This document shows positions 14,371 to 27,959 of a stretch of DNA of 60,081 nucleotides, one piece after another (position 1 is the stretch's first letter; each line of letters begins with the position of its first letter). Under the pieces are notes generated by a model. The model searched no databases and was not told where the DNA came from. It saw only the letters and a list, made by a program, of their open reading frames with translations. A program made the translations under genes and the position numbers. The DNA is from Spirogloea muscicola (taxonomy: Eukaryota > Streptophyta > Zygnematophyceae > Spirogloeales > Spirogloeaceae). The DNA is taken from positions 1,598,237 through 1,658,317 of the forward strand of contig WELB01000002.1 in the NCBI GenBank assembly GCA_009602725.1, written 5' to 3'.

Positions 14371-14963
14371 CTTCGGATGGACAAGTCTCCGAAGCGGTCG
14401 GCGAGCGCAGATCACGCAGCCACTCATCTGGAAAATGCGCGGCCGCGGATCGCGGGCTGCCTGTGCCAAGCGAGCGCGAGGGGGCCAGCCGGCCCGGCTG
14501 CTGGGAGGCGAGGGCCGCCACTACGCCAATGATTGCCGCGCGGGGAGGGAGGAAGTGGAGGGAGGGCGCGGGTTGAGGGAGGTAAAAAGCGTGCACTGAG
14601 TGGGTGATTGGGGGGGGCCACGAGGGCCACAGCCACTCAGTCATTTGTCCTGGGCTGGCCGTTCACATGGTCCACGGCCCACGCCTTTCATCTGCTTGCT
14701 GGCCGTGCTGCAGCCTCCGGCTTCGTCAAGGGGATTGCTTTCCGGCGGGTAGTCTCCCTGACTTGCGGCTCCTAAGCAGAGGTTACTAAGGTGATTATCC
14801 TCCCGGGAAGCTCTGGGAAAGCGCTGTTCGGCCCCTTTGGACCTTGTCAATTCTTTTCGGGCTGGCAAAATTTCGTGTAATTGAAACAAACGAAGGCCAA
14901 ATGGCCAAGTAAAAAGGCAAGCCCATCTAAAGACCTACATAACTTACAGTAATTTTGACCCGC

Positions 14964-15340
14964 TCAGTAAGCACGGGTCAAAATATAAAGGTCGCTAACC
15001 GATGTCTGCATACTAGATGGCAGATACGAAGCCCTTCTGCCACCAACTAGAGCTCGCCCAGCTTTCTGGTGCAAAGCATTAGCCTGAGCACGCTGCAAAC
15101 AGGCCGAAACTCGTCGACGCAAGAACGACAGATATGCAGCTGGCAAGCCCATCTCAGCCGGGAACACATCTGCATGTCGTGTGTAGCCTAGATTGGCTAT
15201 ATTTGAAAGGAGTATAAGAAAACGAGGATCTAGGCAGGCAAAGATGTCGATTGCCGCGGGCAGGAGCTGATCACATTGGGGGTAATCGGAGTAGTGCTGC
15301 AACTTTCTTTCTTCAGCACTGCCCACTGCGTGGCCAGCGA
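14964..15340 (-). mobile_element. RLE-type LINE 3' end, subfamily B (uninterrupted tail)
   Basis: A minus frame of 120 codons reads RKLQHYSDYPQCDQLLPAAI, YTRHADVFPAEMGLPAAYLS, FLRRRVSACLQRAQANALHQ and finally DLYILTRAY-stop. It provides the uninterrupted reference sequence for the telomere-interrupted copy at 22.5-23.5 kb. Downstream (14.86-14.96 kb) is the subfamily B 3' flank, CGAAGGCCAAATGGCCAAGT. Confidence 0.85.
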
Positions 15341-15479
15341 TGTGTCGATGCTGGACCTTTATAGGCCTCCGTAACCACTGGCTGGCTGTCCACAGCCCTT
15401 GCTACCTTAGGAGAGCCACTTTCTTTCATTCGCAGCCCGCGGCCCTTTGAGATGGGCTCACTTCTGTTCACAAACAAGC

Positions 15480-20480: not shown

Positions 20481-20782
20481 CTTGGCCGGGGGAAGTTCGG
20501 GACTCCGGCTCCGAAGGCGGCGCCGAGAACGCGCGGGCGGGGCGACGGCGGGCGGCGCGGCGGCGACGGGAGCGACGGGAGCGACGGTGGCAGCAGGGGC
20601 CNTTTTTGGAGGTATGTTTGTGGCGAGGACGTCCACTTGGCGCACAAGCGAGTCAGTGACTGGCGATCGAGGATGCCTGTTAGCTACTAGAGGCTGGGTG
20701 CGGAGAGGACCCCAAAGAAGAAGCTTCATAGATTCGTAATGGCCTGCCTCCGGAAGAGGGAAGGGCTCGCCCATTGAGGATA

Positions 20783-20802
20783 GGGGCTGGAAAAGCCAGC
20801 CC
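20783..20802 (-). repeat. Hairpin module
   Basis: GGGGCTGGAAAAGCCAGCCC is preceded by GGCTCGCCCATTGAGGATA and followed by a GAGCAAAGGATGAACAAAGT-type tail. It is nearly identical to the modules at 1.3 and 3.9 kb (minus) and 0.3 and 48.2 kb (plus). Confidence 0.8.
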
Positions 20803-20949
20803 AAGGATGAGCAAAGGATGAACAAAGTACGAGAAGGGGGCCAGGGGAAGCGCTAAGAAAAACAAGAACAACAAGAAATATAGCAGCTACGTATTACTCA
20901 GTAACCCCAGCTAAGCAGCCTCAGGTCAGAGAAGCTAGGCTCCTGGAAG

Positions 20950-22470
20950 TGGGTTCCTTGGCCAGAGCCAGAGGACGGCTGCCCAAGGGAGGGAGGTTGA
21001 GGTTGAGAGCGAGAGGAAATTGGAGTAGGGAGAAGGGACAGGGGTTCAAGAAGTGGGGAAAATCACAAGAGGGTGACTCCATCTACACTGGCACCACCGG
21101 ACTCCCTAGCCCGCATCTATCCCGTTCCCGTCTAGCGCTGTGTGTGATGAGCTTCATAAAGCATGTATTCAGATGGTAGCGCCCCGCCACCCACTGCACT
21201 GAACTTAAAGCATATGAGCTACCGTTTCAGAAATTTCATAGGACTTTCTCTTCAAAGACGTGCAGCCTGCTCAACGTCCGAGCAAAGTGAGCAAATAGCG
21301 ACGATGCCAAGCCCACCGGAGTGGCAAAGGCTGCGTGACGGGCCCCACTGCATATTGCAGTTTGAGCGGCCAAAGGACTTTGAAAGGAGCCAAAAGGCAT
21401 CCGGAAGGACGACGACAGCAGAGGACGCCGGTGCAGCAGATCAAAGCACCGTAGATCAAGAGAATGTTTGCAGGCACAACAAGTGGCGAGACGAGACGAA
21501 GAGCGTCACGTGGAAGCCAATTATCATCAGGTTTCAGAGAGAGAGAGACTGGAAGCTCCTTATAGTAGGGGCGATAGCTCTGATAGGTCAGCCCTTACAT
21601 TTAACCAGGTCCGAATGGGCGGGAAGTTCTAATTCACACAGCTACACAAATTAACTAGTCGAAGTGGGTGCTCAATGGTCCCTAGTCAGCAGCTGCAGTC
21701 AGAGTAGCTTACAGCCGAATAAACGAGAGAGGTGAGAAAAAGCTGTTCTTAAGTAAGACACTGGGTCGTACGAGGCCAGCCCAAAAGAATGAACAAGGTC
21801 CAGAACAGACCGGAAGCTGCAAAAGCACTAAATTTCTTTCCTGCTGCGAATGGACGCTCAGTGACCTCTACTCAAGAATGCAACAAGGGGGCGATGGAAG
21901 TAAAAGGCCAGCCCAATAAGCTCTAGTCAGCAGCCGCAACTTAGAGTAGCTTGCAACTCGGAAAGTGCTACCACGGGCAAAGGGAGAGAGGGGAAGACTC
22001 ACATCAGAGGTCGACGGCTGTGATAGGCAATCTCAGAAAGACAGAAGTGCTCGCCCATAGAGAAGGGGCTGGGAACGGCCAGCCCAAGAAGAAATAAACC
22101 ACTGCTAAAGGAAGCGCGGCCCAAATGACTGGTGGCTGTGAGAGGCCAGCCCAAAGGATGGACAAGGTCTGAAGGAGCCGGATGGCGCAGAAAGCAAGGT
22201 ACTACAGCTAAGCGGCCGCAGGTCCCCTGGCTAGAGCCAGAGGCGGCGGCAAGGGCTCGACCGGCGCGGAGATGCAACGCGCGAGCCATGGACCGCTGCA
22301 GCGAGACGGCCAAGCGCAGAAAGAAGACTGAACAGATTCGAAAGGGCCAGAAAATCACGCTCAACATACAGCGACTTAAGTGGCCTCTGGGTGCTCAACA
22401 TTCCCTCTTGGGCAGCCGCAGCTCAGAGAAACTAGCCTCCGGGTAGCAGGTCCCGTGGCTATAGCCAGAA
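20950..22470. other. Repeat-rich stretch without a supported gene
   Basis: Several diverged minus-oriented hairpin modules lie near 21.77, 21.90, 22.05 and 22.13 kb. There is also a short minus RLE tail fragment at about 22.21-22.33 kb (VSLQRSMARALHLRAGRALA). A 163-codon plus frame (21163-21654) has no recognisable domain; I leave it uncalled. Confidence 0.5.
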
Positions 22471-22529
22471 GAAAGTGCTCGCCCATAGAGAAGAGGGGCT
22501 GGCAAAGAAGAGAAGAAGAGGGCTCGCCC

Positions 22530-23531
22530 AGCTTCTGATAAGAGGAACACAATCCAGACTGGTTACGGCAGTGGAAGATGAGCGCTGCAGAAGGTTGAGG
22601 AGGCTGCCAGGGATTCAGAACAATCCAAGGAGCCTGGCAAGACTTACTTCTCTTGCCACACCGGGTGCCACAGACTGGATCGCCTCTGACGCCGTCGCGC
22701 CTTCAGCTTCAGCTCGGAGGCCTTTCGGACGTCGCGTCAATTCTTCCTCGGCCTACCACCTAACAGCCTGATTGGGGTGCGCCAGTGTGAGTGCGGCTTC
22801 CGTGCAGAGGGCGCTGAGCTCGCCACTCACATGCTGCGATGCCCCACTGGACCAGAAGTGGTGGACATCCACAACCTCCTTCGAGATGCCATGGCGGGTT
22901 TGACGCGCGACGTCGGGTACCGTGCGGTCGTGGAAGTGAACAACATTATGCCTATCACCATGGATGCCCAAGGACGTCATCATCGCCGCATACTTGACAT
23001 TGTGGGCGTGCAACGTGGTGGAGGACCACCGGCCTTGGTCGATGTTGGTCGATGTAGTTACGGAGGCCTGTAAAAGTCCAGCATCGATGGACATCGCTGG
23101 CCACGCTGTGGGTGGTGCCAAACTAAGAAAGCTGCAGCACTACTCCGATTACCCTCAATGCGATCAGCTCCTGCCAGCGGCAGTCGACATGTTTGGCTGC
23201 TTAGGTCCTCGTTTCCATTCTTCAAAATATTGCCACTCTAGGCTACACACGACATGCAGATGTGCTCCCGCCTAAACCCTAATCCCTAAACCCTAAAGTC
23301 CTAAATCCTAAATCCTAAACCCTGAACCCTAAACCGGTTGAGATGGGCTTGCCTGTTGCATATTTGTTATTCTTGCGACGACGAGTTTCGGCCTGTTTGC
23401 AGCGTGCTCAGGCTAATACTTTGCACCAGAAAGCTGGGCAAGCTCTAGTTGGTGGCAGAAGGGCTTCGAATCTGCCATCTAGTATTCAGGCATCGATTAG
23501 CGACCTTTATGTTTTGACCCGTGCTTACTGA
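22530..23531 (+). mobile_element. RLE-type LINE subfamily B, 3' copy interrupted by telomeric repeat
   Basis: The plus strand reads RLVTAVEDERCRRLRRLPGI, then (after a frame shift) LPPNSLIGVRQCECGFRAEG, AELATHMLRC, RRILDIVGVQRGGGPPALVD, KLQHYSDYPQCDQLLPAAVD and YTRHADVLP. Here 63 bp of CCCTAAA-like DNA intervene. The frame then resumes with EMGLPVAYLLFLRRRVSACL and ends DLYVLTRAY-stop at 23531. The RRADLV-type endonuclease signature of subfamily A appears here as RRILDIVG...ALVDV. It is inactive because of frameshifts and the insertion. Confidence 0.85.
23271..23333. repeat. Interstitial telomere-like repeat (CCCTAAA-type), 63 bp
   Basis: About nine units of CCCTAAA and near variants (CCTAAATC, CCCTGAA) in one orientation. 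The array interrupts the RLE tail exactly between the codons for VFP/VLP and EMG. CCG is found at both edges (23268-23270 and 23334-23336), compatible with a 3-bp target duplication. The uninterrupted sequence is seen at 14.96-15.33 kb and 23.9-24.4 kb. Confidence 0.92.
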
Positions 23532-23643
23532 GCGGGTCAATCTGCTGTAGTTTATGTAGGTCTCTAGATGTGCTTGCCTTCGTATTTGGCCATTTGGCCT
23601 TCGTTCGTTTCAAATGCACGATCTTTCTTGCCCATTGAGGATA

Positions 23644-23662
23644 GGGCTGGCAAAGCCAGCCC
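23644..23662 (-). repeat. Hairpin module between two tail-to-tail LINE copies
   Basis: GGGCTGGCAAAGCCAGCCC has a 7-bp stem and a 5-base loop, followed by an A run and GAATAAACACCTCC. It lies near the axis of the 22.5-24.85 kb inverted repeat. Confidence 0.8.
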
Positions 23663-23901
23663 AAAAAGAATAAACACCTCCTCCCGGAGGTGTAAGCACG
23701 TGGCTGGCTCTTCCAGCCGCACTTTTACGACCTTGTACATTCCTCTGGGCTAGCCTCTCACTTTACTTGTCGGGCTGGCTTATCACAGCCCTTGCCCCCA
23801 ATGGAAAGAAGATTGTGCATTTGAAACGAACGAAGGCCAAATGGCTAAGTACAAAGGCAAGCACATCTGAAGACCTACATAATGACAGCAGATTGACCCG
23901 C

Positions 23902-26900
23902 TCAGTAAGCACGGGTCAAAACATAAAGGTCGCTAATCGATGCCTGAATACTAGATGGCAGATTCGAAGCCCTTCTGCCACCAACTAGAGCTCGCCCTGC
24001 TTTCTGGTGCAAAGCATTAGCCTGAGCACGCTGCAAACAGGCCGAAGCTCGTCGTCGCAAGAACGACAGATATGCAGCTGCAAGCCCATCTCAGCCGGGA
24101 ACAAATCTGCATGTCGTGTGTAGCCTAGATTGGCAATATTTTGAAAAAGAGTGTGGAAACGAGGACCTAAGCAGCCAAAAATGTCGACTGCCGCTGGCAG
24201 GAGCTGATCGCAGTGGGGGTAATCGGAGTAGTGCTGCAGCTTTCTTTGTTTGGCACCACCCACTGCGTGGCCAGCGATGTCCGTCGATGCTGGACTTTTA
24301 TAGGCCTCTGTAACAACAACATCGACCAAGGCCCGTAGTCCTCCACCACGTTGCACGCCCACAATCTCAAGTGTGCGGCAATTATGACGTCCTTGGGCAT
24401 CCGTGGTGATAGGCATGATGTTGTTCACTTCCACGACCGCACGGTACCCGGTCGCGCATCAAACCCGCCAGGGCATCGCGAAGGAGGTTGTGGATGCCCA
24501 CCACTTCTGGTCCAGTGGGGCATCGCAGCATGTGAGTGGCGAGCTCAGCGCCCTCTGCACGGAAGCCGCACTCACACTGGCGCACCCCAATCAGGCAGTG
24601 GAAGAATTCTTCCTCGGTAGGCCGAGGAAGAATTGAAGCGATGTCCGAAAGGCCTCGGAGCTGAAGCTGAGTGCGTTGGCGACGGCGTGAGAGGTGATCC
24701 AGTCTGTGGCACCCGGTGTGGCGAGAGAAGTCTTGCCAGGCTCCTCGGATTGTTCTGAATCTTTGGCAGCCTCCTCAACCTTCTGCGGCGCTCATCTTCC
24801 ACTGCCGTAAGCAGTCTGGATTGTGCCCCTCTATCAGAAGCTTGGGCGAGGTCTGAGAATGGCGTGAGTAGGGATTGTATAGAGGGAAAAAGGTCGACTG
24901 CTGAGTCGCGGATGCTCCTCAGATCCGCTTGGAAAGGGAAGGAGCCTTCCTCCACATTGCGGACAGGGTCGTGGAGGCAAGGGAAGCACATGGGAAGCAG
25001 AGAGGCGATCTGGTGCCAGCAGCCCAGGAAGGCTGCTTTCGCCGTCTGCTCCAACGACCGGCAGCCAAGGCCGCCCATGCGAGTGGGGAGGGAGGCCTGG
25101 AGGGAAGCTGAAGCTGAGGGGAAAGATGAAGAATGTAGTATGGATGCCAAGGACTGCAGAAGGGAGTTATCATATTCCTTGTAGAGCTCCACCACCATGC
25201 CCATTGTTTCGATTGTCCGTTGCAGATAGCAAGCCCGTTGGCCGATGCAGCGAGTGAGAATGGCCAACTCAAGCTATGTGTCGCCAAGGAGGGAAAGGGA
25301 AGGGAGGGGGCGAGGTGTTTTTGAAGCCTTTCCCGCAAGTCCACCGCCACGTGAGCTGGTGTACTGAAGGGGACCTTGAGGATGGCCAGCCCATTGGCAG
25401 GGGTCTGACAGCCGAAAGGGAGCTGAAGGTTGGCGGGGAGACCGCGTGGGGACTATGCCACGCTCTTGGACGGGCAAATCCGCAGGCCCATCAGGTCCAA
25501 TTTGCGAACGAGCAAGGGGTAAGCCGCCATGACCTCCCGCGGGAGGTCTAATGATGTAGTGTGTCATCCTCGTAGGAGGGAAAGAGGAGGTCTGGGTGTT
25601 GGCTCTGGGTGCGCCGAATAGTCCGGCAATGTGCCAAGGCAAACAGGATTGGGCTAAGGGGATACCCCTGGTGTGTGCCAGAAGATGACCACAGCGTCTT
25701 CCACGACTCTCCGGCTTGCCACAGCAGCCGCCCTGGAAGGCCAAAGGCCATGGGGAAAAAGGGTACAAGGGAAGGGAAGTGGTTGCGCAGCTCCTCCATG
25801 ATGACGCTGCACTCCACGGTGTTGAAAACATTACTGATATCCAGCCCAAAGACCATCAATGAAGGGTCCACGTCGAGAGCAGCGCGGATGCCATGGATGA
25901 GGGCCTCCGCCCCGCAGGACATGCCAGCACCAAATTGGTGGGGTGATAGGTGGCTGGTCAGCTGGGGTTTCAGCTCGCTGCACACGGCCTTGATACTAGC
26001 CTCATGATAACCTCTGTCATCACAATGGGTCTCACACCGCCTGTCGGCTTCGCAAGGGCTAGCAGGTGGCTGGAGTTTAAGGCATCGGCAATGTGTGGCG
26101 GAATGGCAGCTCTGGCAATGTGCCGGCAGGTGGACAGGAACAGGGAGAAGCTCCTCTCATCCCCATCAAGGAAAAGGTCCTGTAGGTGCTCAAAGAGCCA
26201 TCCAGAAGGGCCTCCAGACACCCTTGGGTGGGCTTTGGTCAGGGCCACACGGAGCGCCTCTGCCGATAGGTCAAGAGGACTGGGGAGCTCGCCAGCCCAG
26301 GGCTCGAGGGGGTGTTGGGGGGTGGAGCTGTCGCAAGATAGCCTCCGTGGCGTCGTTGGCAGTAGCCAGGGGGTCAGGGCAAAGGGCCTGAGAGGCCCGA
26401 GAAAGTTCTCCTTCCTAGGTTTCGAAGGCCGTCAGGGATGAGAAGGGGGGTGAGGTCCACTGTGGCAGCCCAATGCCAGCTCTCTGGAGAAGGGGGTGGT
26501 GGAGGCCGAACGGTGCCCGGCACATGTGAACTCGCTGCCTGCTCCTGCCGATTCTGGCTATTTGCGGCAGTGATAGGCATGGACTGGCAGCCCTTTCGGG
26601 CTGAAACGTTGCTGGCATACTGGGCAGGGGACTCTCTGGTCTGGTGCATTTGGGAGGCCCGTGTGGACTGGGCTCGGGTCGTGAGACCGACCCTGGCGAG
26701 GTCGTCGTTGATGGTCACCAGCTGGATGGTCTTTCACAACAACAGGTCGAGGCAGCAAGGGAGGTAGAGGTACGGGTAGAGGCAACAGAGGAGGTAGAGG
26801 AGGGGCAATGGTGGCGGCGGCAATGGTGGCGGCGGCAATGGAGGTGGTGGTGGTGGTGGTGGCGGCTCCGGGGCGGGGACTGGTGCAGGCACTGGAGAAT

Positions 26901-27222: not shown

Positions 27223-27750
27223 TGAGGCAATGGCAGCCCTCGTTTGCAGCAGTCGAGCTGCGGGTGCCGTAAGGGCAGGGGCGCGCCGCGACGGGTTGCG
27301 CGCCGCGCCTCGACCTTTGGCAGCCGCTGCTATGGCGGTGGGGTCGGTCCAGCGGGCGGTGGGCGATGGGGGCCGGCGGGGGGATTAANCGGTGGTGCTG
27401 GCGGCGGGGCTCGGCGCGGCGGCGGGCGGGTTCTCCGACATCCGCCCCGCCGGTGAGGGCGGGGCCGGCCTGGACGAGGCATCAAGAGGCGGCGGCGGCG
27501 GCGCCGGCGCTGTGACGAGCAATGGCCGTGTCCTGCGGGAGCGGCGGGGCCGGCCCCGAGATGGCGGCGGCGGAGGGCTCGACGGCGGGGATGACGCCGG
27601 CGCTGTCGCGGCCAAGGCGGTGCGGCTGCCGTGCGGTGACGACCCACCGACGCAGCGGCTGGCTCCCGACGAGCAGCTCTCGTGGCAGCCTCAGGTGACT
27701 GGCCGCCGCCGCCGATCGGTGCCGATCCATTCGGCGCTACAGTGGCCAGC

Positions 27751-27771
27751 CCCAAACCCTAACCCTAAAGC
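27751..27771. repeat. Two telomere-like units
   Basis: CCCAAACCCTAACCCTAAAG lies at the edge of the GC-rich stretch upstream of the fucosyltransferase gene. It contains two CCCTAA(A) units in the same orientation as the 23.3-kb array. This is too short to exclude chance. Confidence 0.5.
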
Positions 27772-27959
27772 TAAGCCCAATGAGAGCTGGATCTCTCAGC
27801 AGGCTGTGGAGTGCTGCTCTGCCGCGCTTGATGCTGGCTGACACCAATCTAGGCCACCCCGCGTGTTGTTAACACGCCGCCGTCGCCACCGTCTTGCCCA
27901 ACAGTCAAAGTATAACTTGATCTGTCTTGTCTTCGCCATTGTGTAAGAAATTTGCAAAG

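Follow-up and report, generated by a model that had tools for sequence, protein, structure and literature searches.

How did a run of telomere repeats come to lie inside the reading frame of a retroelement, at a non-terminal position of its contig? The window, a stretch of 60,081 nucleotides from Spirogloea muscicola (C2:1598237-1658317 of a 153-Mb assembly in 471 contigs), holds nine degenerate CCCTAAA-type units that occupy 63 bp (23271-23333, plus strand) near the 3' end of a high-copy retroelement and break its open frame. A sequence-only reading of this DNA had reported a CCCTAAA-type insert of that length, and its extent is borne out, as the best cyclic alignment to CCCTAAA spans 23271-23335 (65 bp, score 98) around the 63-bp core, with 5 substitutions and 1 inserted G. 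On the contig of 2,225,403 bases the alignment corresponds to C2:1621507-1621571.

Elsewhere in the window, on either strand, a score of at least 30 is reached only by a weak tract (27750-27778, score 33). The reversed control unit AAATCCC reaches 47 inside the 23271-23335 tract and nowhere else in the window, against 98 for the true unit. Eight matches to the 14-mer (CCCTAAA)2 with up to 2 mismatches are present in the window, seven in the tract and one at 27750, whereas 100 shuffles lead to an expectation of 0.14, which excludes a chance origin. Three consecutive units carry the identical variant TCCTAAA. With up to 3 mismatches the tract sequence occurs only once in the 153-Mb assembly, and an Rfam search of the whole window returned no match at gathering score. 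Since CCCTAAA arrays are found at two sampled contig ends (C10:1-28 and C22:22-77), the unit is the terminal telomere repeat of the host, whose assembly contains the chlorophyll a/b-binding genes of the green lineage. The tract thus belongs to the short interstitial telomeric sequences (ITSs). Events of this kind are known, and the internal controls available in this case are unusually good.

The 3' part of the retroelement that carries the insertion was delimited by self-BLAST to 22523-23621 (plus strand), its 3' end near 23621 being placed by the 3' ends of other copies. A neighbouring copy lies inverted to it, 3'-to-3', on the minus strand (matching part 23815-24850), and is 89.5% identical to it in the 772 columns that align left of the tract. 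This neighbour probably continues upstream, towards higher coordinates, where a reverse transcriptase fragment (RVT_1, 25551-26156, minus strand, Pfam E 6.9e-8) is presumed to belong to the same element. A third copy is located at 14873-15378 (minus strand). In the neighbour the frame is open for 157 codons across the insertion site (23988-24458, minus strand), so that the insertion falls in coding sequence, and the telomeric block within a retrotransposon reading frame is real; just past the site the neighbour's frame looks shifted relative to the filled copy. Through the insert the latter gains 22 codons, two of which are in-frame stops. However, as a further stop is present upstream in that frame, the insert need not have inactivated the copy. 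Searched against Pfam, one of seven frame pieces gave a match and six gave none, and no endonuclease was matched (E 0.1) in the C-terminal frame pieces, where a cysteine/histidine motif was seen by eye only. The label RLE, given by eye both previously and in our own inspection, is therefore not confirmed by Pfam, while the reverse transcriptase is.

Two features of the surroundings deserve mention. The filled and the neighbouring copy, with a spacer of ∼195 bp, form a long inverted repeat (22523-24850) that is possibly break-prone, and the telomeric tract lies ∼290 bp from the inner end of its left arm. Further to the left, a segment of 1,911 bp (20603-22513) starts right after a single N at 20602 and is 100% identical to C50:21525-23435, with different flanking DNA on both sides; either it transposed very recently or the assembly duplicated it.

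Whether the repeats were gained by this copy or lost from others was read from other copies of the element. We compared the best-scoring 30 loci for each of two queries, whose first look had yielded 3,144 and 1,328 candidates with 40 each scored; the two sets of loci overlap. After merging of identical stretches, 75 left/right pairings gave 45 distinct junctions among these best-scoring copies, 40 of them empty (6-bp spacing), one filled (72-bp spacing, the window) and four mixed, the last pairing two different copies or reflecting local duplications. A second comparison, based on flanks, provided 44 other distinct junctions as counterparts to the window tract. The empty 29-mer matched 1,128 times genome-wide with up to 3 mismatches, and its reversed control 0 times. 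Both window copies named in the sequence-only reading, in which the codons were said to be contiguous, are indeed empty, with TTCCCGGCTGAG in the inverted copy near 24.1 kb and the exact empty 29-mer at 15142-15170 (minus strand), near 15.17 kb. The pre-insertion site is thus preserved next door, as had been claimed, and likewise in many other copies. An ancestral presence of the CCCTAAA repeats in the element, which that reading had named as its possible undoing, is rejected by the 40 empty junctions against one filled in the best-scoring copies and by the 1,128 empty 29-mers. Other tracts at the same element coordinate, for which it had suggested a genome-wide search, did not turn up in a gapped exact search, which gave four matches, three inside the window tract and one at C32:450563. 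The latter was considered as a second tract at the site and rejected, being a 5'-truncated element copy. The insert is private to the window copy.

These comparisons bear on the idea that a chance seed within the element grew as a microsatellite. The tandem run of one variant suggests that some slippage took place, but no CCCTAAA seed is present in the empty site (TTCCCGGCTGAG) and the gapped exact search recovered no intermediate copy, only the three matches in the tract and the truncated element. Moreover, CCG is found on both sides and the unit equals the host telomere repeat, which makes growth from a seed the least probable origin of those considered here.

The junction itself is well defined. 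The empty version reads TTCCCGGCTGAG and the filled one CTCCCG-[63 bp]-CCGGTTGAG, which places the insertion site at TCCCG/CCGG and amounts to a net gain of 66 bp (95 minus 29) over the adjacent empty copy. CCG forms the final bases of the left flank (23268-23270, plus strand), as the left half of an apparent 3-bp duplication, and is repeated at 23334-23336 (plus strand), where CC may instead belong to the telomeric tract. Since CC fits flank and tract equally well, the CCG on either side, previously likened to a target duplication, stands as a duplication of 1-3 bp; a 3-bp match of this kind is expected by chance in ∼1-2% of cases from base composition. When the bottom strand is read, ...CCGG closes the right flank and TTTAGGG follows, so that two nucleotides (GG) are in register with the repeat. 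This is as expected for priming by telomerase, although at a single locus it may be due to chance; PMC2246262 puts the chance of at least 2 in-register bases at up to 6.25%, and in its mammalian table 49-67% of the loci have that many.

Could the junction have been made by the assembly, with two element copies joined through telomeric reads? Four single-N marks occur in the window, one of them immediately before the 1,911-bp segment that has its identical counterpart in C50. The nearest N, however, is ∼2.7 kb away from the tract, both flanks keep to the element coordinates within 3 bp and show similar divergence (7.1% and 6.7%), and the tract itself is mutated. We therefore regard an artefact as very unlikely.

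How common such tracts are was estimated from the rest of the genome. Exact (CCCTAAA)2 matched 1,360 times genome-wide, compared to a single match for the reversed control. A hand count in C2-C10 (14.40 Mb) gave 49 interstitial clusters, ∼3.4 per Mb, and due to different thresholds the comparison with published densities allows only a rough 'denser here'. Among 44 sampled tracts, the window and two contig ends excluded, a 28-mer with at most 1 mismatch is contained in 10 and one with at most 2 in 14. Not all interstitial tracts are independent insertions, as L070, L072, L082 and L084 are copies of a single repeat and the same flank occurs at L083 and L104. The flanks of 59 tract entries were compared, where some loci give two entries and contig-end arrays are included. 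Clear empty counterparts were obtained for three of the 59, namely the window, L043 (36 distinct others) and L102 (11). For L070, L082 and L091 the differing spacings all came from comparison with a related repeat or with the entry itself, and the remaining entries had no counterpart in the limited sequence compared. Empty sites were also sought for L080 and L014 and none were obtained, because their flanks belong to different or variable repeats.

The two additional resolved loci differ from the window in their footprint. L043 lies in the same element family and holds a 37-bp tract ∼61 bp downstream of the window site (in the neighbour's coordinates), with TTTTGGCCT repeated beside the tract, a local 9-bp repetition; it is independent of the window tract. 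At L102, which lies in a different repeat, 28 bp are replaced by 33 bp. As footprints of break repair, the three loci thus present a 1-3 bp duplication, a local duplication and a replacement of 28 bp, and the comparison of footprints rests on these three loci since most sampled tracts gave no empty counterpart.

The sequence-only reading had also suggested that the break might have been at or near an endonuclease site of the element, and an element-linked origin would mean either a cut by the retroelement's own endonuclease or repeats added by its machinery. Of the three ITSs whose empty site was recovered, two do lie in the same element tail, though the loci concerned had been retrieved for their relationship to the window copy. 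The 3' junctions of the element speak against such an origin: among 60 distinct element 3' flanks, 34 start with AA and in 55 three or all of the first 4 bases are A/T; CCGG is present within 12 bases in 0 of 60 and CCCTAAA within 60 bases in 0 of 60. In addition, the window and L043 tracts are at different element coordinates, and many sampled ITSs have no element flank in the sequence compared. Further tracts at L014, L017 and L026 lie outside the element. With A/T-rich 3' junctions, an insertion site at TCCCG/CCGG and L043 placed elsewhere, the suggested endonuclease site finds no backing, and an element-linked origin is even harder to credit than an assembly artefact. Since sites and footprints differ, the repeat is of host type and the occurrence is private, repair of a double-strand break fits better than a fixed endonuclease site.

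We therefore conclude, with a probability of roughly 0.8, that the window tract consists of telomeric repeats inserted at a double-strand break by repair, whatever the source of the repeats; the origin in break repair put forward by the sequence-only reading agrees with the junction. The break, the type of overhang and the enzyme are inferred. A break inside the element would have left 3-nt 3' overhangs: at the left end CCG (top strand), at the right end CGG (bottom strand). Telomerase could then have primed on the bottom-strand 3' end of the right fragment (...CCGG-3'), with GG in register with GGG, and added about nine TTTAGGG units. Fill-in of the other strand and joining of the new end to the left fragment would produce CCG on both sides, and the inserted tract would subsequently decay by mutation.

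For the source of the repeats, direct extension by telomerase is the reading that we prefer, on account of the purity of the tract, the in-register GG and the lack of a donor, and we give it about an even chance overall. A rival for this step only is capture or templated copying, in which a telomeric or subtelomeric fragment with variant units was end-joined into the break without telomerase. Three identical TCCTAAA variants in a row could mean a copied variant array (or slippage) rather than a fresh telomerase product, and degenerate telomere-like DNA internal to the C22 end (L091) illustrates a possible kind of donor. Local filler duplications are seen with polymerase-driven end joining, and L043 has such a duplication. 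The assembly, whose ends may be incomplete, contains no donor with up to 3 mismatches, however, the tract carries no obvious non-telomeric passenger DNA, and GG is in register on the priming side. Due to the TCCTAAA run and the degenerate DNA at a contig end, capture stays a possible, if less favoured, source with about one chance in three.

Decay of the tract offers a rough date. As reference we took the majority base of each column among 42 sampled copies on the left and 54 on the right, counting the window copy; from this majority the window copy differs at 21 of 294 positions on the left and 19 of 285 on the right, together 40 of 579 (6.9%). In the tract, substitutions away from perfect repeats number 5 in 65 bp (7.7%). 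Provided that pure repeats went in, tract and copy may be of roughly equal age, and the insertion may have followed soon after the arrival of the copy, with a large error; an insert that was already degraded would invalidate this clock.

Several other telomeric tracts of this genome show structures of their own. At L014:3016-3052 a pure 37-bp telomeric tract starts exactly where copies of a dispersed repeat turn variable (GAGCTT). The repeat body shared by L070, L072, L082 and L084 holds telomere-like units, which in L070, L082 and L084 occur in both orientations as hairpin-like arms. L083 and L104 have a common left flank, followed by differing numbers of CCCTAAA units and then by related but different right flanks, and are members of a repeat family that carries a telomeric tract. 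In L079 five AACCCCG units precede normal CCCTAAA units as a variant array, and L091 consists of degenerate telomere-like DNA just inside the C22 end. At C27:905790-906317 minus-strand CCCTAAA matches are followed 3 bp later by plus-strand ones, a pattern reminiscent of a head-to-head fusion of two telomere ends or of a read folded back on itself.

Three TERT loci with open frames for the TERT RNA-binding domain were found (C8:566243-566854, C39:399826-400443 and C42:560545-561156). Their presence counts in favour of the proposed break repair with telomeric repeats. Over most of 1.2-1.5 kb their identity is 88-92%, which hints at a triplication of the genome or of the gene. The Spirogloea muscicola genome is triplicated.

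Short ITSs inserted at double-strand breaks are described for rodents, primates and horse in PMC2246262 and PMC7215372. They share with the window tract the host repeat in one lineage or copy, an empty ancestral site and in-register bases at the break. The junction classes listed in PMC2246262 (none, deletion, addition, duplication) comprise the same kinds as seen here, the 'duplication' class making up 6 of 130 loci in rodents and 4 of 25 in primates. That paper also has ITSs inside repeats scored against the repeat consensus or family; the empty site in our case is likewise provided by other repeat copies in one genome, as in 16 primate loci, and not by an orthologous locus. The window tract differs from the mammalian ITSs by its plant-type TTTAGGG repeat. 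SART/TRAS and Zepp are telomere-targeting or telomere-linked retroelements. In MoTeRs, elements of this class (PMC7367193), a retroelement and telomeric repeats are in contact as they are here. In contrast to MoTeR-type systems, the repeat in the window lies inside the element, and none of the 60 element 3' ends has CCCTAAA within 60 bases. Among the titles listed in literature searches that did not extend to subscription journals, none dealt with such insertions on a genome-wide scale in green algae or streptophytes.

Taken alone, the window tract is an ordinary scar of break repair. Its value is that of a clean worked example outside animals, with the filled and the empty version side by side. 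The same comparison could be extended to other tracts, as a test of telomerase action at internal breaks in cells of the green lineage. We tentatively suggest, as a possibility that we would not yet favour, that telomeric break repair may be ordinary and frequent in this organism, with hundreds of short tracts at several per Mb, that retroelements of about a thousand copies archive the empty sites, so that footprints may be readable at many loci from one assembly, and that the three diverged TERT loci might accompany a high action of telomerase at breaks.
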